This document shows, in pieces, positions 1,527 through 5,142 of a stretch of DNA of 64,000 nt; position 1 is the first letter of the stretch, and each line of letters begins with the position of its first letter. The notes under the pieces were generated by a model, which saw only the letters and a list, made by a program, of their open reading frames with translations, had not been told where the DNA came from and did not search any database. Both the position numbers and the translations under genes were made by a program. Location: positions 3,162,001 through 3,226,000 of the forward strand of contig JAWPMV010000001.1 in assembly GCA_033391075.1 (NCBI GenBank), given 5' to 3'. Source of the stretch: Bacteroidia bacterium. GTDB taxonomy: Bacteria; Bacteroidota; Bacteroidia; J057.

Positions 1527-1916
1527 TTATGCAGGTACCTGGGAAGATCCAAAAATCTCCTTTACGCCCTCTATAATCGCTTGTTTATTGATGGGTTTGG
1601 AGAAATAGGCATCGAAGCCTGCATCCAGGAATCTTTGCTTGTCACCGGGCATTGCGTAACTGGTAACAGCCATAATTTTGATGTGACTATTTTTAGGATC
1701 ACTCTTGATCACTTTCATGATCCCTTCACCATCCAGGCTGTTGCTGCCCAAATTGATATCCATAAAAATCAGATCAAAGTCATTCTCTTCAACAGCCGCA
1801 AATGCTTGTTTGTCATTAACAACATGCTTGCAACTGCATAAACTCTGAATGGTTTTGGTAAGAACAAGTGCGTTGATTTTGTTGTCTTCGACTATGAGGA
1901 CGTTAGCTTTATTCAT
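1527..1916 (-). CDS. Single-domain response regulator (CheY/DivK-like receiver)
   Basis: This 129-residue protein is a bare receiver domain with no output domain. The acidic pocket is IVEDN at residues 8-12 (E10, D11), the predicted phospho-acceptor is D53 in IFMDINLG, the conserved Thr is T85 (VTSYAM), and the conserved Lys is K107 in the FSKPI motif. It lies 52 bases downstream of a histidine kinase on the same strand and is very likely its partner. The kinase has no receiver of its own, so this protein probably acts as the separated receiver of that system, passing phosphate or contacting another protein. The kinase/receiver pairing is inferred from position. Confidence 0.93.
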   Translation of the reverse strand: MNKANVLIVEDNKINALVLTKTIQSLCSCKHVVNDKQAFAAVEENDFDLIFMDINLGSNSLDGEGIMKVIKSDPKNSHIKIMAVTSYAMPGDKQRFLDAGFDAYFSKPINKQAIIEGVKEIFGSSQVPA

Positions 1917-1968
1917 GGATTTTTTGTCTAAGGAAATTTTTCTTTAGTGTTTATTTCCAATTTCCATT

Positions 1969-3690
1969 TTATTTCTGAATTCTACTAGCCGAAAATCCAG
2001 GTAATCTAACGGTAAATATACTTCCTTCTCCTTGTTGACTTTCCACGAAAATCTGACCTTTCAAAAGTTCGATGATTCGCTTTACCAAAGACAAACCCAG
2101 TCCAGCTCCTTCATAGTTTCTGTCCAGTCCTTCACTCTCTTGTTCGAACTTCATAAAGAGTTTTTTGCTTACAAAGTCTTCACTCATTCCGATACCCGTA
2201 TCTTTGATCTTAATATCCCAAAAGGCCTTATTAGAACCTTCCTCAGCAAATGCTTCGATCCAGGTCTCAACTTCTCCATTTTCGGTAAACTTCACAGCAT
2301 TTCCTATGATATGCTCCATGACTTTCTGTAAAAGAGACAGTTCGGATTCCACATAATAGATACGATCCATTTCCCTCACCTTGAGTTCAACGTTTTTCTC
2401 AACCGCCTGACTTTCAAATTCTTTGCAGGTAGATTCTAGCACTTGGTTTAAACAAACCTGGCTGGTGGGCATTTCTGCTTCATAGGTTTCCAGATTTGAA
2501 AGATCCAAAATTGATCCTATGGTACGAAGCAATCTCTGACCGGATTCCAGCAGTAGATCTGCATACATATTGAGTTCTTCTTCATTTTCACCGTATTCTG
2601 CAGAAATGATTTCAGCGAGGCCGATTACTCCATTTATAGGCGTTCGAATCTCGTGACTCATATTATTGAGGAAATGAGCTTTTGCAATCGTGGCTGATTC
2701 TGCTCTTTCTTTTTCGAATATTAGTTTTTGCTCAAATTCCTTACTCTCCGTGATATCTGTAATCCGCAGGAGAAGTTGCTGTTTTTCTCCATATTTAACG
2801 AAGGTATAAGCCATACTACCCCAAAAGATCCTATTGTCCCGGGTCACAAATTCACGCTCCCAACTCCATTTCTCATCATTGATCAGACGATAATTGATTT
2901 CTTCCAATCCTTGCGCATTATAGGGATTTTTCATTAAAGCTTGTATTTTCTCGCCTTCAAAACTCCCGGATCTATCCAGATCAAATAGCTCCAGTGAGCG
3001 AGCGTTGCTTTCAATGATTTTGTGATCATTGAGGTCTGCGATAAAAATGGCATCAAAGGAATTATTGAAAACAGCTTTCAATTCCTGCTGTGCAGCAAAA
3101 ATAATTTCATCGACCTGTTTATCGGAAAGAGATTGGAAATAAAGTGCTATTGCAATACCTATTAGGATGGCAATTATAAAATTACCTAAATAGGTTGCGG
3201 TTCGCTCATCCATACTTGTAATGGGATCTCCAAAAATCCGATGATCATAGGCTTCCATCAAGCCAATAAAGGCAAATGTTACCATCACCAAAAAGATGAT
3301 CTTTCCTTTTTCCTTTACATCGAACAGGGTAAAAATAAGTAGGACCAGCAGAAAAAATGCTAAATGGTCTCCGCTTTCGAAGCCCATATAAGAGCTTGTA
3401 AGAAATACAGAAATATTCCCTACAATTAGAAACCAAAATCTAGAAAAAATAAGATAACCTCTATGGTTCCAGAGCATAGTTAAGAGGAATGCTACTACAG
3501 TAGCCATCTGACTCCAGGCAGCAACTTCTATCCCCAAATCAAAATAATGGAAGACATGGGGAAGATTTAACAAACTTCCAATAAATGCTATTCTGTTTAA
3601 CAATTTGGTTCTTTTTGCTTCACCAGATAGCAATCCTTCTCTAACGCCTACATTGGAAAGAGCATTCCAGATTTGCTTAATTATGTTCAT
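1969..3690 (-). CDS. Membrane PAS-domain sensor histidine kinase
   Basis: This 573-residue protein has about six hydrophobic segments in residues 32-186 with short loops, so the sensor is embedded in the membrane rather than periplasmic. A PAS domain follows at about 205-315, ending in the ITDITESKEFE linker helix. Then come HisKA with phospho-acceptor H346 (NNMSHEIRTP) and a HATPase domain with N464 (N box), DTGIGM at 497-502 (G1) and GAGLGLSL at 528-535 (G2). All catalytic motifs are intact. It is followed by a single receiver protein (1527-1916), and an alpha-oxoamine synthase family enzyme lies just upstream on the same strand. A multi-TM kinase beside such an enzyme recalls CqsS and LqsS. 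Its ligand is unknown. Confidence 0.94.
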   Translation of the reverse strand: MNIIKQIWNALSNVGVREGLLSGEAKRTKLLNRIAFIGSLLNLPHVFHYFDLGIEVAAWSQMATVVAFLLTMLWNHRGYLIFSRFWFLIVGNISVFLTSSYMGFESGDHLAFFLLVLLIFTLFDVKEKGKIIFLVMVTFAFIGLMEAYDHRIFGDPITSMDERTATYLGNFIIAILIGIAIALYFQSLSDKQVDEIIFAAQQELKAVFNNSFDAIFIADLNDHKIIESNARSLELFDLDRSGSFEGEKIQALMKNPYNAQGLEEINYRLINDEKWSWEREFVTRDNRIFWGSMAYTFVKYGEKQQLLLRITDITESKEFEQKLIFEKERAESATIAKAHFLNNMSHEIRTPINGVIGLAEIISAEYGENEEELNMYADLLLESGQRLLRTIGSILDLSNLETYEAEMPTSQVCLNQVLESTCKEFESQAVEKNVELKVREMDRIYYVESELSLLQKVMEHIIGNAVKFTENGEVETWIEAFAEEGSNKAFWDIKIKDTGIGMSEDFVSKKLFMKFEQESEGLDRNYEGAGLGLSLVKRIIELLKGQIFVESQQGEGSIFTVRLPGFSASRIQK

Positions 3691-3811
3691 CCATACTTTC
3701 TTGATCCATCAAGATAATTTCGTGAGTATCATTTAGAAAGAACGAAAACTGGATTTCCTAACAGATAGAAATTTAGGAGATGAAATGAATTATTAGAATT
3801 CAACTAAAAAA

Positions 3812-3836
3812 AGCCGAAGAAAAAATTTCTTCGGCA
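3812..3836 (-). terminator. Intrinsic terminator of the oxoamine-synthase gene
   Basis: On the minus strand gccgaagaaa and tttcttcggc form a 10-bp perfect stem with a tiny loop, followed by a run of seven T. It lies 45 bases after the stop of the gene at 3880-5142 and separates it from the histidine kinase downstream. Confidence 0.8.
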
Positions 3837-3879
3837 AAATAACGGGGAATAAACGGGAAATTATTTTTTAGCAGGCACC

Positions 3880-5142
3880 TTAAGTCTTTACTTTAAATGC
3901 TTCATAAACATCCTCCATAGATGAATTCTCTTCTTTCAAAACTTTGGGGAGTTCTTCGGCCACACATTGCAGAAGTGCATCTACATCTTTGTAGGTAATA
4001 TGATTACTTATGGCAACTCTAACACCGGTATTCTTCTTAGGCACACTGGGGTAAACGGCCAGGTTGACAAAAAATCCATTTTGCTGAAGTCTGTCCACAA
4101 TTTTATAGCCGACAGACTGTAGCCCTACATTGATAAAACATATAGGAGAAATCGATTCAGAGAATACGGGTACCTGCAGTTCTTCCGCCCGTAAATTGAA
4201 ATAAGCTATTTTATTTCTGAGTCTTTGCTGGAGTTCTGGCAATCTTGATCCCATATGAAGTTTGAGACTAGCAATTATTGCCCCCAGATTTGCAGGTTGC
4301 AAGGGACCGGAAAAAATCATGGTTCCTCCACAGGTTTTAACCTTGCGACGACTTTCTTCATTTGGATAAACCAGTATACCTCCTGCAGCTCCAAAGCTTT
4401 TAGCCATCCCAGCTACCAGATATAATCTTTCATGATAGGGTAGCACACTATTGACGTAGCCACTCCCGTTTTCACCAAATGCACTAGATCCATGGGCATC
4501 ATCGATATACAAATGAAATTGATCATACTTGTTCAATAAGACCGTAAGCCTATCCATAGGGGCAAAATCTCCATACATAGAATAGATACCATCTGCCAAA
4601 TACCATATTCTTTTATGCGTGGCACTCAGTTTCTGGATTCTGCTTTCAAGCATATCCATATTATTGTGTCGTACAAGCTCAACTCTGATCCCACGGATTC
4701 TCAAAAGGTTTGCTGCCATTTGAACAGAAGCATGAACCTGATAATCGAGAATTACAGCATCTTCATCTTCTATCAGAACTGGAAGGTTGGATAAATGCCC
4801 ATGAGTCACTGAGGCTGCCAGAATAACCGGCCGTTTATAAATGCTTTCTAATAATTTCTCCGCTTCTTCATATAATCCGATCGATACATATGCTCGAGAG
4901 GATGAATATTGGGTTCCGTATCTTAAAATTGCGTCTATTGCCCCTTGTTTTAAACTCTCTTCAATTTCTAATCCCAGGTAGCTACAGCTACCAAAGTTGA
5001 TAAGGTCTTTTCCTTTTATGTTTATCGTTCTCCCGTTTAATGCATAATCTTCAGCTGTGAGGTGAATGAGACCTAATTCTGAAGCCCGGCTAACAGATTC
5101 ATCTATAGCTTCTAAAGACTGGGCTGTTTTACTTTTGCTCAT
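3880..5142 (-). CDS. Alpha-oxoamine synthase family PLP enzyme (AONS/KBL/CqsA-like)
   Basis: This 420-residue fold-type I PLP enzyme has the hallmarks of acyl-CoA:amino acid condensing enzymes. These are the INFGSCSYLGL N-terminal motif (48-58), H137 for ring stacking in DYQVHASV, DDAHG at 214-218, and K248 in AGMAKSFGAAGG as the Schiff-base lysine. The family includes 8-amino-7-oxononanoate synthase, 2-amino-3-ketobutyrate CoA ligase, serine palmitoyltransferase, 5-aminolevulinate synthase and the autoinducer synthases CqsA/LqsA. No biotin, threonine-degradation, haem or lipid gene is adjacent. The same-strand neighbours are a multi-TM histidine kinase and a receiver protein, which favours a signalling metabolite or a lone lipid or amino-ketone step. 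The substrate cannot be read from the sequence. Confidence 0.85.
   Translation of the reverse strand: MSKSKTAQSLEAIDESVSRASELGLIHLTAEDYALNGRTINIKGKDLINFGSCSYLGLEIEESLKQGAIDAILRYGTQYSSSRAYVSIGLYEEAEKLLESIYKRPVILAASVTHGHLSNLPVLIEDEDAVILDYQVHASVQMAANLLRIRGIRVELVRHNNMDMLESRIQKLSATHKRIWYLADGIYSMYGDFAPMDRLTVLLNKYDQFHLYIDDAHGSSAFGENGSGYVNSVLPYHERLYLVAGMAKSFGAAGGILVYPNEESRRKVKTCGGTMIFSGPLQPANLGAIIASLKLHMGSRLPELQQRLRNKIAYFNLRAEELQVPVFSESISPICFINVGLQSVGYKIVDRLQQNGFFVNLAVYPSVPKKNTGVRVAISNHITYKDVDALLQCVAEELPKVLKEENSSMEDVYEAFKVKT

Follow-up and report, generated by a model that had tools for sequence, protein, structure and literature searches.

An alpha-oxoamine synthase of a separate clade beside a membrane sensor kinase in a Bacteroidota genome: a candidate small-molecule signalling module

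The window, that is, the whole analysed stretch of 64,000 nucleotides, belongs to contig JAWPMV010000001.1 of a Bacteroidia bacterium (GTDB J057). A preceding sequence-only reading had placed an enzyme gene, a gene for a kinase without receiver and a gene for a lone receiver on one strand, and all three open reading frames were found (Table 1). The kinase and receiver genes are separated by 52 bases. The N-terminus of the kinase is hydrophobic, with a MASE7-like match just below the Pfam cut-off, and is followed by PAS, HisKA and HATPase_c domains. H346 is intact, and no receiver domain is present in the kinase. The lone receiver retains D53 and has no output domain. No export, acyl-supply or reductase gene linked to the enzyme was found in the window.

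Table 1. Features of the enzyme-kinase-receiver locus, in window coordinates
Feature	Position	Strand	Basis
Putative signal synthase (420 aa), an alpha-oxoamine synthase (AOS) from a clade of its own	3880..5142	(-)	PF00155
Membrane PAS histidine kinase without receiver, 573 aa	1969..3690	(-)	HisKA, HATPase_c
N-terminal six-helix membrane sensor domain (kinase residues 1-201)	3088..3690	(-)	Predicted fold as Rv1625c anchor
Lone receiver (129 aa), probably the kinase's partner	1527..1916	(-)	Single REC domain
Intrinsic terminator 3' of the enzyme gene	3813..3835	(-)	10-pair hairpin followed by T7
Remaining intergenic gap, presumed kinase/receiver promoter region	3691..3812	(-)	Position only

Because of the strong terminator between them, the enzyme and the kinase are read as separate transcription units. 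The sequence-only reading had counted this terminator against a signalling module. It is present, and it is no objection, since similar hairpins occur in the same gap of relatives, and two Vibrio records show cqsA and cqsS as separate genes that converge. The gap between enzyme and kinase is 189-204 bases long in the window and in five relatives. The hairpins are similar in L045 and L044 and weaker in L046; none was found in the gap of L042 and L064.

The enzyme contains the complete AOS active site, as expected of a Cqs/Lqs synthase. It consists of H137, D214, H217, the carboxylate-binding R375 and K248, which lies within GMAKSFG and is the intact PLP lysine, as had been read. None of the five residues varies in the first alignment of the enzyme clade, with 13 members. 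In the case of the curated family models, the enzyme scored below every equivalog cut-off. The best model was NCBIfam PRK07505 (NF005697), with 272 bits over nearly the full length against a cut-off of 342; this model is named only 'hypothetical protein' and has no assigned function. The LqsA/CqsA model gave 87 bits (cut-off 428), the BioF model 166.6 bits (426), the two Kbl models 125 and 142 bits (493 and 460), and the Spt models 98-150 bits (500-670). PHROGs gave no match. The closest solved enzyme is Alb29 of Streptomyces albogriseolus (PDB 8xha; 139 bits, 31% identity), which is actinobacterial, unlike the enzyme described here.

A phylogeny with CqsA, LqsA, BioF, Kbl and Spt references, which had been proposed as a check, placed the enzyme outside all of them. 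In the careful maximum-likelihood tree, from which one mis-read row (L031, branch length about 10) was left out, the enzyme and its relatives form one clade with a support of 99/98, apart from Kbl, CapB, Spt and BioF. CqsA/LqsA form their own clade with a support of 100/100 that excludes the enzyme; its LqsA-like members are Cupriavidus and Tistrella plasmid records named so solely by similarity to CqsA, and its V. cholerae CqsA row is the part found to agree with PDB 2wk7 at every residue. The enzyme shares 18-22% identity with CqsA/LqsA. Constraining its clade to join CqsA/LqsA was rejected (AU p=0.0014), and so was joining it with BioF (AU p=0.00013). Outside the clade, Alb29 comes nearest, together with two enzymes from rhizobia and one from an E. 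coli plasmid; Alb29 and the plasmid row are on long branches. The reference rows 28eh, 8guh, 2w8u and 8xha are partial, and single letters in them may be off. By this tree, the enzyme is a member of a separate, well supported AOS clade. The earlier label 'CqsA/AONS family' is thus correct at the superfamily level and incorrect at any finer level.

Other genes of the genome were considered for the housekeeping functions of the superfamily. A true Kbl (700 bits) is encoded elsewhere, as is a CapB-like cysteate acyltransferase of sulfonolipid synthesis (G000:C1:1026963-1028021, L056), whose best match of solved structure scored 550 bits and whose match to a chain named cysteate-C-fatty acyltransferase scored 542 bits. 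Neither BioA nor BioB was found above the cut-off in this genome, which appears unable to make biotin. Each housekeeping assignment was rejected: BioF on its score, the AU result and the missing BioA and BioB matches; Kbl on both scores and the true Kbl elsewhere; Spt/CapB on scores under the cut-offs, the position outside both tree groups and the separate CapB-like gene. Since the enzyme lies outside all reference clades in a genome with its own Kbl and CapB-like enzyme and with no BioA or BioB match, it has no evident housekeeping role. The sequence-only reading would have been abandoned if the enzyme had grouped firmly with BioF, Kbl or Spt with no second copy of that function and no conserved gene order. 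The grouping found was a different one, and the linkage is conserved.

The enzyme clade is present in 11 of 60 related genomes at 39-62% identity, with other AOS enzymes next at about 30%. As the suggested neighbourhood comparison revealed, L042, from another genus of the same family, has the identical enzyme-kinase-receiver order, with identities of 62, 46 and 60%. The gene after the enzyme encodes a hybrid kinase bearing the sensor domain type of the window in L045, a kinase truncated by the end of the contig in L046, and kinases with a different membrane domain in L044 and L047. Next to the L043 enzyme (55% identical), no kinase or receiver gene lies within two positions. Another 80 loci, many of them with the enzyme followed by a kinase or by receiver and kinase genes, came from a scan of named genomes, and dereplication gave a set of 68 loci, of which 58 were scorable. 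Across the 68 loci, kinase or receiver genes made up 70/242 of the genes within two positions of the enzyme vs 11/325 at four or more positions (Fisher p about 2e-18, with genes within one locus not independent). Of the 58 clade loci, 39 have a kinase or receiver gene no more than two positions from the enzyme; among 39 loci that encode other AOS enzymes, only one does. The linkage of synthase and kinase genes, a trait of Cqs and Lqs, is therefore found here too and is not universal: the remaining 19 scorable clade loci have no such gene within two positions. In a separate phylum-wide draw, the clade occurred in 9/391 other genomes, and a kinase or receiver gene was this close to the enzyme at only 1 of 10 clade loci. 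This comparative evidence makes a functional link of the enzyme clade to signal transduction very likely. The adjacent kinases vary in sensor type between loci, and these types are related weakly if at all, which is not predicted by one conserved ligand. Three loci from genomes of the same family, L042 (3954-5402), L045 (8992-10500) and L050 (5040-6395), also encode an uncharacterised protein of 450-500 aa whose gene is transcribed divergently from that of the enzyme; it has no Pfam match (tested in L042), and the window lacks this arrangement.

The sensor domain of the kinase was followed in 12 genomes of the same family. All four enzyme-bearing genomes gave a strong match (E below 1e-11), and none of the eight without the enzyme did so; weaker matches are present in some of these. 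In G009, the sensor kinase and the enzyme lie on different contigs, yet both are present. The window's own genome has no close paralogue of the domain. The AlphaFold model (mean pLDDT 84) consists of six membrane-length helices with short loops; the helix count was read from this predicted structure, as hydropathy counts were ambiguous. One structure alone matched clearly, the membrane anchor of the Rv1625c adenylate cyclase (PDB 7yzk), with Z 18.3 and an rmsd of 2.6 A over 183 residues; it shares 12% identity, and its output is a cyclase in place of the kinase here. The next matches were human AC9 (Z 12.5-13.3), one chain at 9.4 and the rest at 7.3 or below. The model thus has the six-helix design without extracytoplasmic domain seen in Cqs/Lqs kinases. 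A profile comparison with CqsS and LqsS gave no match, with shallow profiles of 5 and 3 sequences. CqsS and LqsS have been described as sharing the six-helix design of the Rv1625c anchor, and CqsS can replace this anchor in a chimera, giving a response to CAI-1 (Beltz and colleagues, PMC4821796). The predicted fold fits a lipophilic, membrane-borne ligand; it is widespread and does not itself identify the ligand.

The enzyme has a C-terminal extension of about 400 residues at 35 of the 68 loci left after dereplication, and this fusion needs a single change on the tree. The predicted fold of the fused domain is a tandem GNAT of the FemX/FemA type, with weak detection by PF13480. This fold suggests that the aminoketone may be N-acylated or N-aminoacylated in the fused branch. 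The commonest non-kinase neighbour of the branch is DUF7793 (19 loci). All nine non-kinase loci of the phylum-wide draw have the fused form and a divergent DUF7793 gene; beyond it, the three loci read fully encode a regulator with an AraC-like end, and in the one regulator scanned, an AraC-type HTH was found and a HAMP match narrowly missed the cut-off. L122 has four DUF7793 genes in a row upstream of the fused enzyme. In L074 and L120, two fused copies are present per locus, as if the module had been duplicated. A short-chain dehydrogenase gene lies just upstream of the fused enzyme in L089, L095 (confirmed with Pfam), L124 and L125, and its product could reduce the ketone.

In several genomes, rteC (PF09357) adjoins the fused gene; the two loci that were scanned gave 203 and 280 bits. 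After the GNAT-fused enzyme of L176, L177 and L180-L184 comes a gene for a protein of 276-298 aa, which was rteC where tested (L176 and L183), and the neighbours resemble a Bacteroidota conjugative-element backbone (excisionase-like HTH, DnaC-like ATPase). The presence of rteC and conjugative-element-like genes beside the fused enzyme suggests that a signal may control element transfer at these loci. The fused copy of L183 (6934-9361) is split into two open frames of 637 and 187 aa and appears to be frame-broken; its relatives have intact copies.

A separate enzyme branch that adjoins sensor kinases in many bacteria of the phylum points to a probable role in chemical signalling. The best single explanation, to which we give a probability of about 0.5, is a module for synthesis and sensing of an autoinducer, in which a self-made signal is used as in Cqs and Lqs and which arose independently within the AOS superfamily. 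In this module, the enzyme would make a lipophilic molecule of the alpha-aminoketone type, and this molecule would partition into membranes. Judging from the gene pairing and the predicted fold, the six-helix, loop-poor domain of the adjacent kinase would sense it, and the kinase would alter the phosphorylation of the lone receiver, which would relay the signal to a downstream output. The plan is like that of Vibrio CqsA/CqsS and Legionella LqsA/LqsS/LqsR, where an AOS synthase is also paired with a loop-poor six-helix membrane kinase (predicted in our case). As in Vibrio, synthase and kinase are separate transcription units, and as in Lqs, the receiver is apart from the kinase. The differences are the other AOS clade, the sensor without a sequence match to the shallow profiles, the PAS domain that follows it, and the Bacteroidota host. 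Since the clade test fails, the locus is not a member of Cqs/Lqs. The analogous small-molecule signalling module proposed from the sequence therefore gains from the conserved kinase/receiver linkage, the co-occurrence of sensor and enzyme and a predicted sensor type that CqsS can replace; it loses its tie to CqsA/LqsA, and the sensor gave no match to the shallow CqsS/LqsS profiles.

A substantial rival, less probable than the autoinducer module, is that the enzyme is under the control of the kinase and receiver, or that these sense a membrane state altered by the enzyme, and that the product is a non-signal lipid or secondary metabolite, comparable to the sulfonolipids of CapB. AOS enzymes mostly make lipid bases and metabolites, a CapB-like enzyme is already in this genome, and regulators often adjoin the genes under their control. 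The varied sensor types are consistent with such a pathway, as are the FemX-like GNAT, which could N-acylate a lipid base, and the MFS gene beside enterobacterial plasmid homologues. However, the other lipid and metabolic AOS enzymes of the phylum show no such linkage (1/39), the enzyme and kinase of the window are separate transcription units, and the spotty distribution (9/391) is ill-suited to a structural lipid.

Much less weight falls on the remaining explanations. The adjacency of enzyme and kinase could be chance in this large genome, where a terminator separates the two genes and the upstream gene is unlike that of the relatives; with the same order in L042, the enrichment of kinase and receiver genes and the co-occurrence of sensor and enzyme, we consider this very improbable. 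True membership of Cqs/Lqs, with alpha-hydroxyketones as products, would account for the common superfamily and the same pairing with a six-helix-type kinase and receiver. It is very unlikely given the exclusion from the CqsA/LqsA clade, the AU result, the low identity and score (87 vs 428 bits) and the lack of a sensor match to the shallow CqsS/LqsS profiles. Only a superfamily-level similarity favours a housekeeping role as BioF, Kbl, Spt or CapB with a kinase beside the gene by accident. This is no easier to accept, as every equivalog cut-off was missed, Kbl and CapB functions are encoded elsewhere with no BioA or BioB above the cut-off, joining with BioF was rejected and the kinase linkage is conserved.

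In Bacteroidota, hardly any small-molecule autoinducer is known that has its own synthase and receptor. No published description of the enzyme clade or of the module was found in the papers searched. The locus is a compact, testable, putative synthase-receptor pair, and it suggests that AOS enzymes have been recruited to signalling more than once. More tentatively, the clade may be a large undescribed quorum-sensing family, present in Bacteroidota and scattered other phyla, which makes autoinducers of the alpha-aminoketone type for cognate membrane/PAS kinases, with the FemX-like fusion diversifying the signal and the rteC-adjoining lineages possibly controlling conjugative transfer. The fused form is a candidate for the control of mobile elements that seemingly carry the fused gene.

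Distant homologues outside the clade were also observed. On rhizobial plasmids, the AOS genes of L150, L227, L228 and L229 adjoin genes for response regulators, autoinducer-binding domains, GNAT or SDR proteins, and they possibly represent a second, undescribed signalling-like group. With GNAT, response-regulator and autoinducer-binding neighbours beside these homologues, the tie to regulators and acyltransferases may predate the enzyme clade. In an E. coli plasmid (L147) and a Klebsiella plasmid (L230), a distant AOS gene lies directly after an MFS gene with a slight overlap, and this overlap with a transporter gene suggests that the product may be exported.
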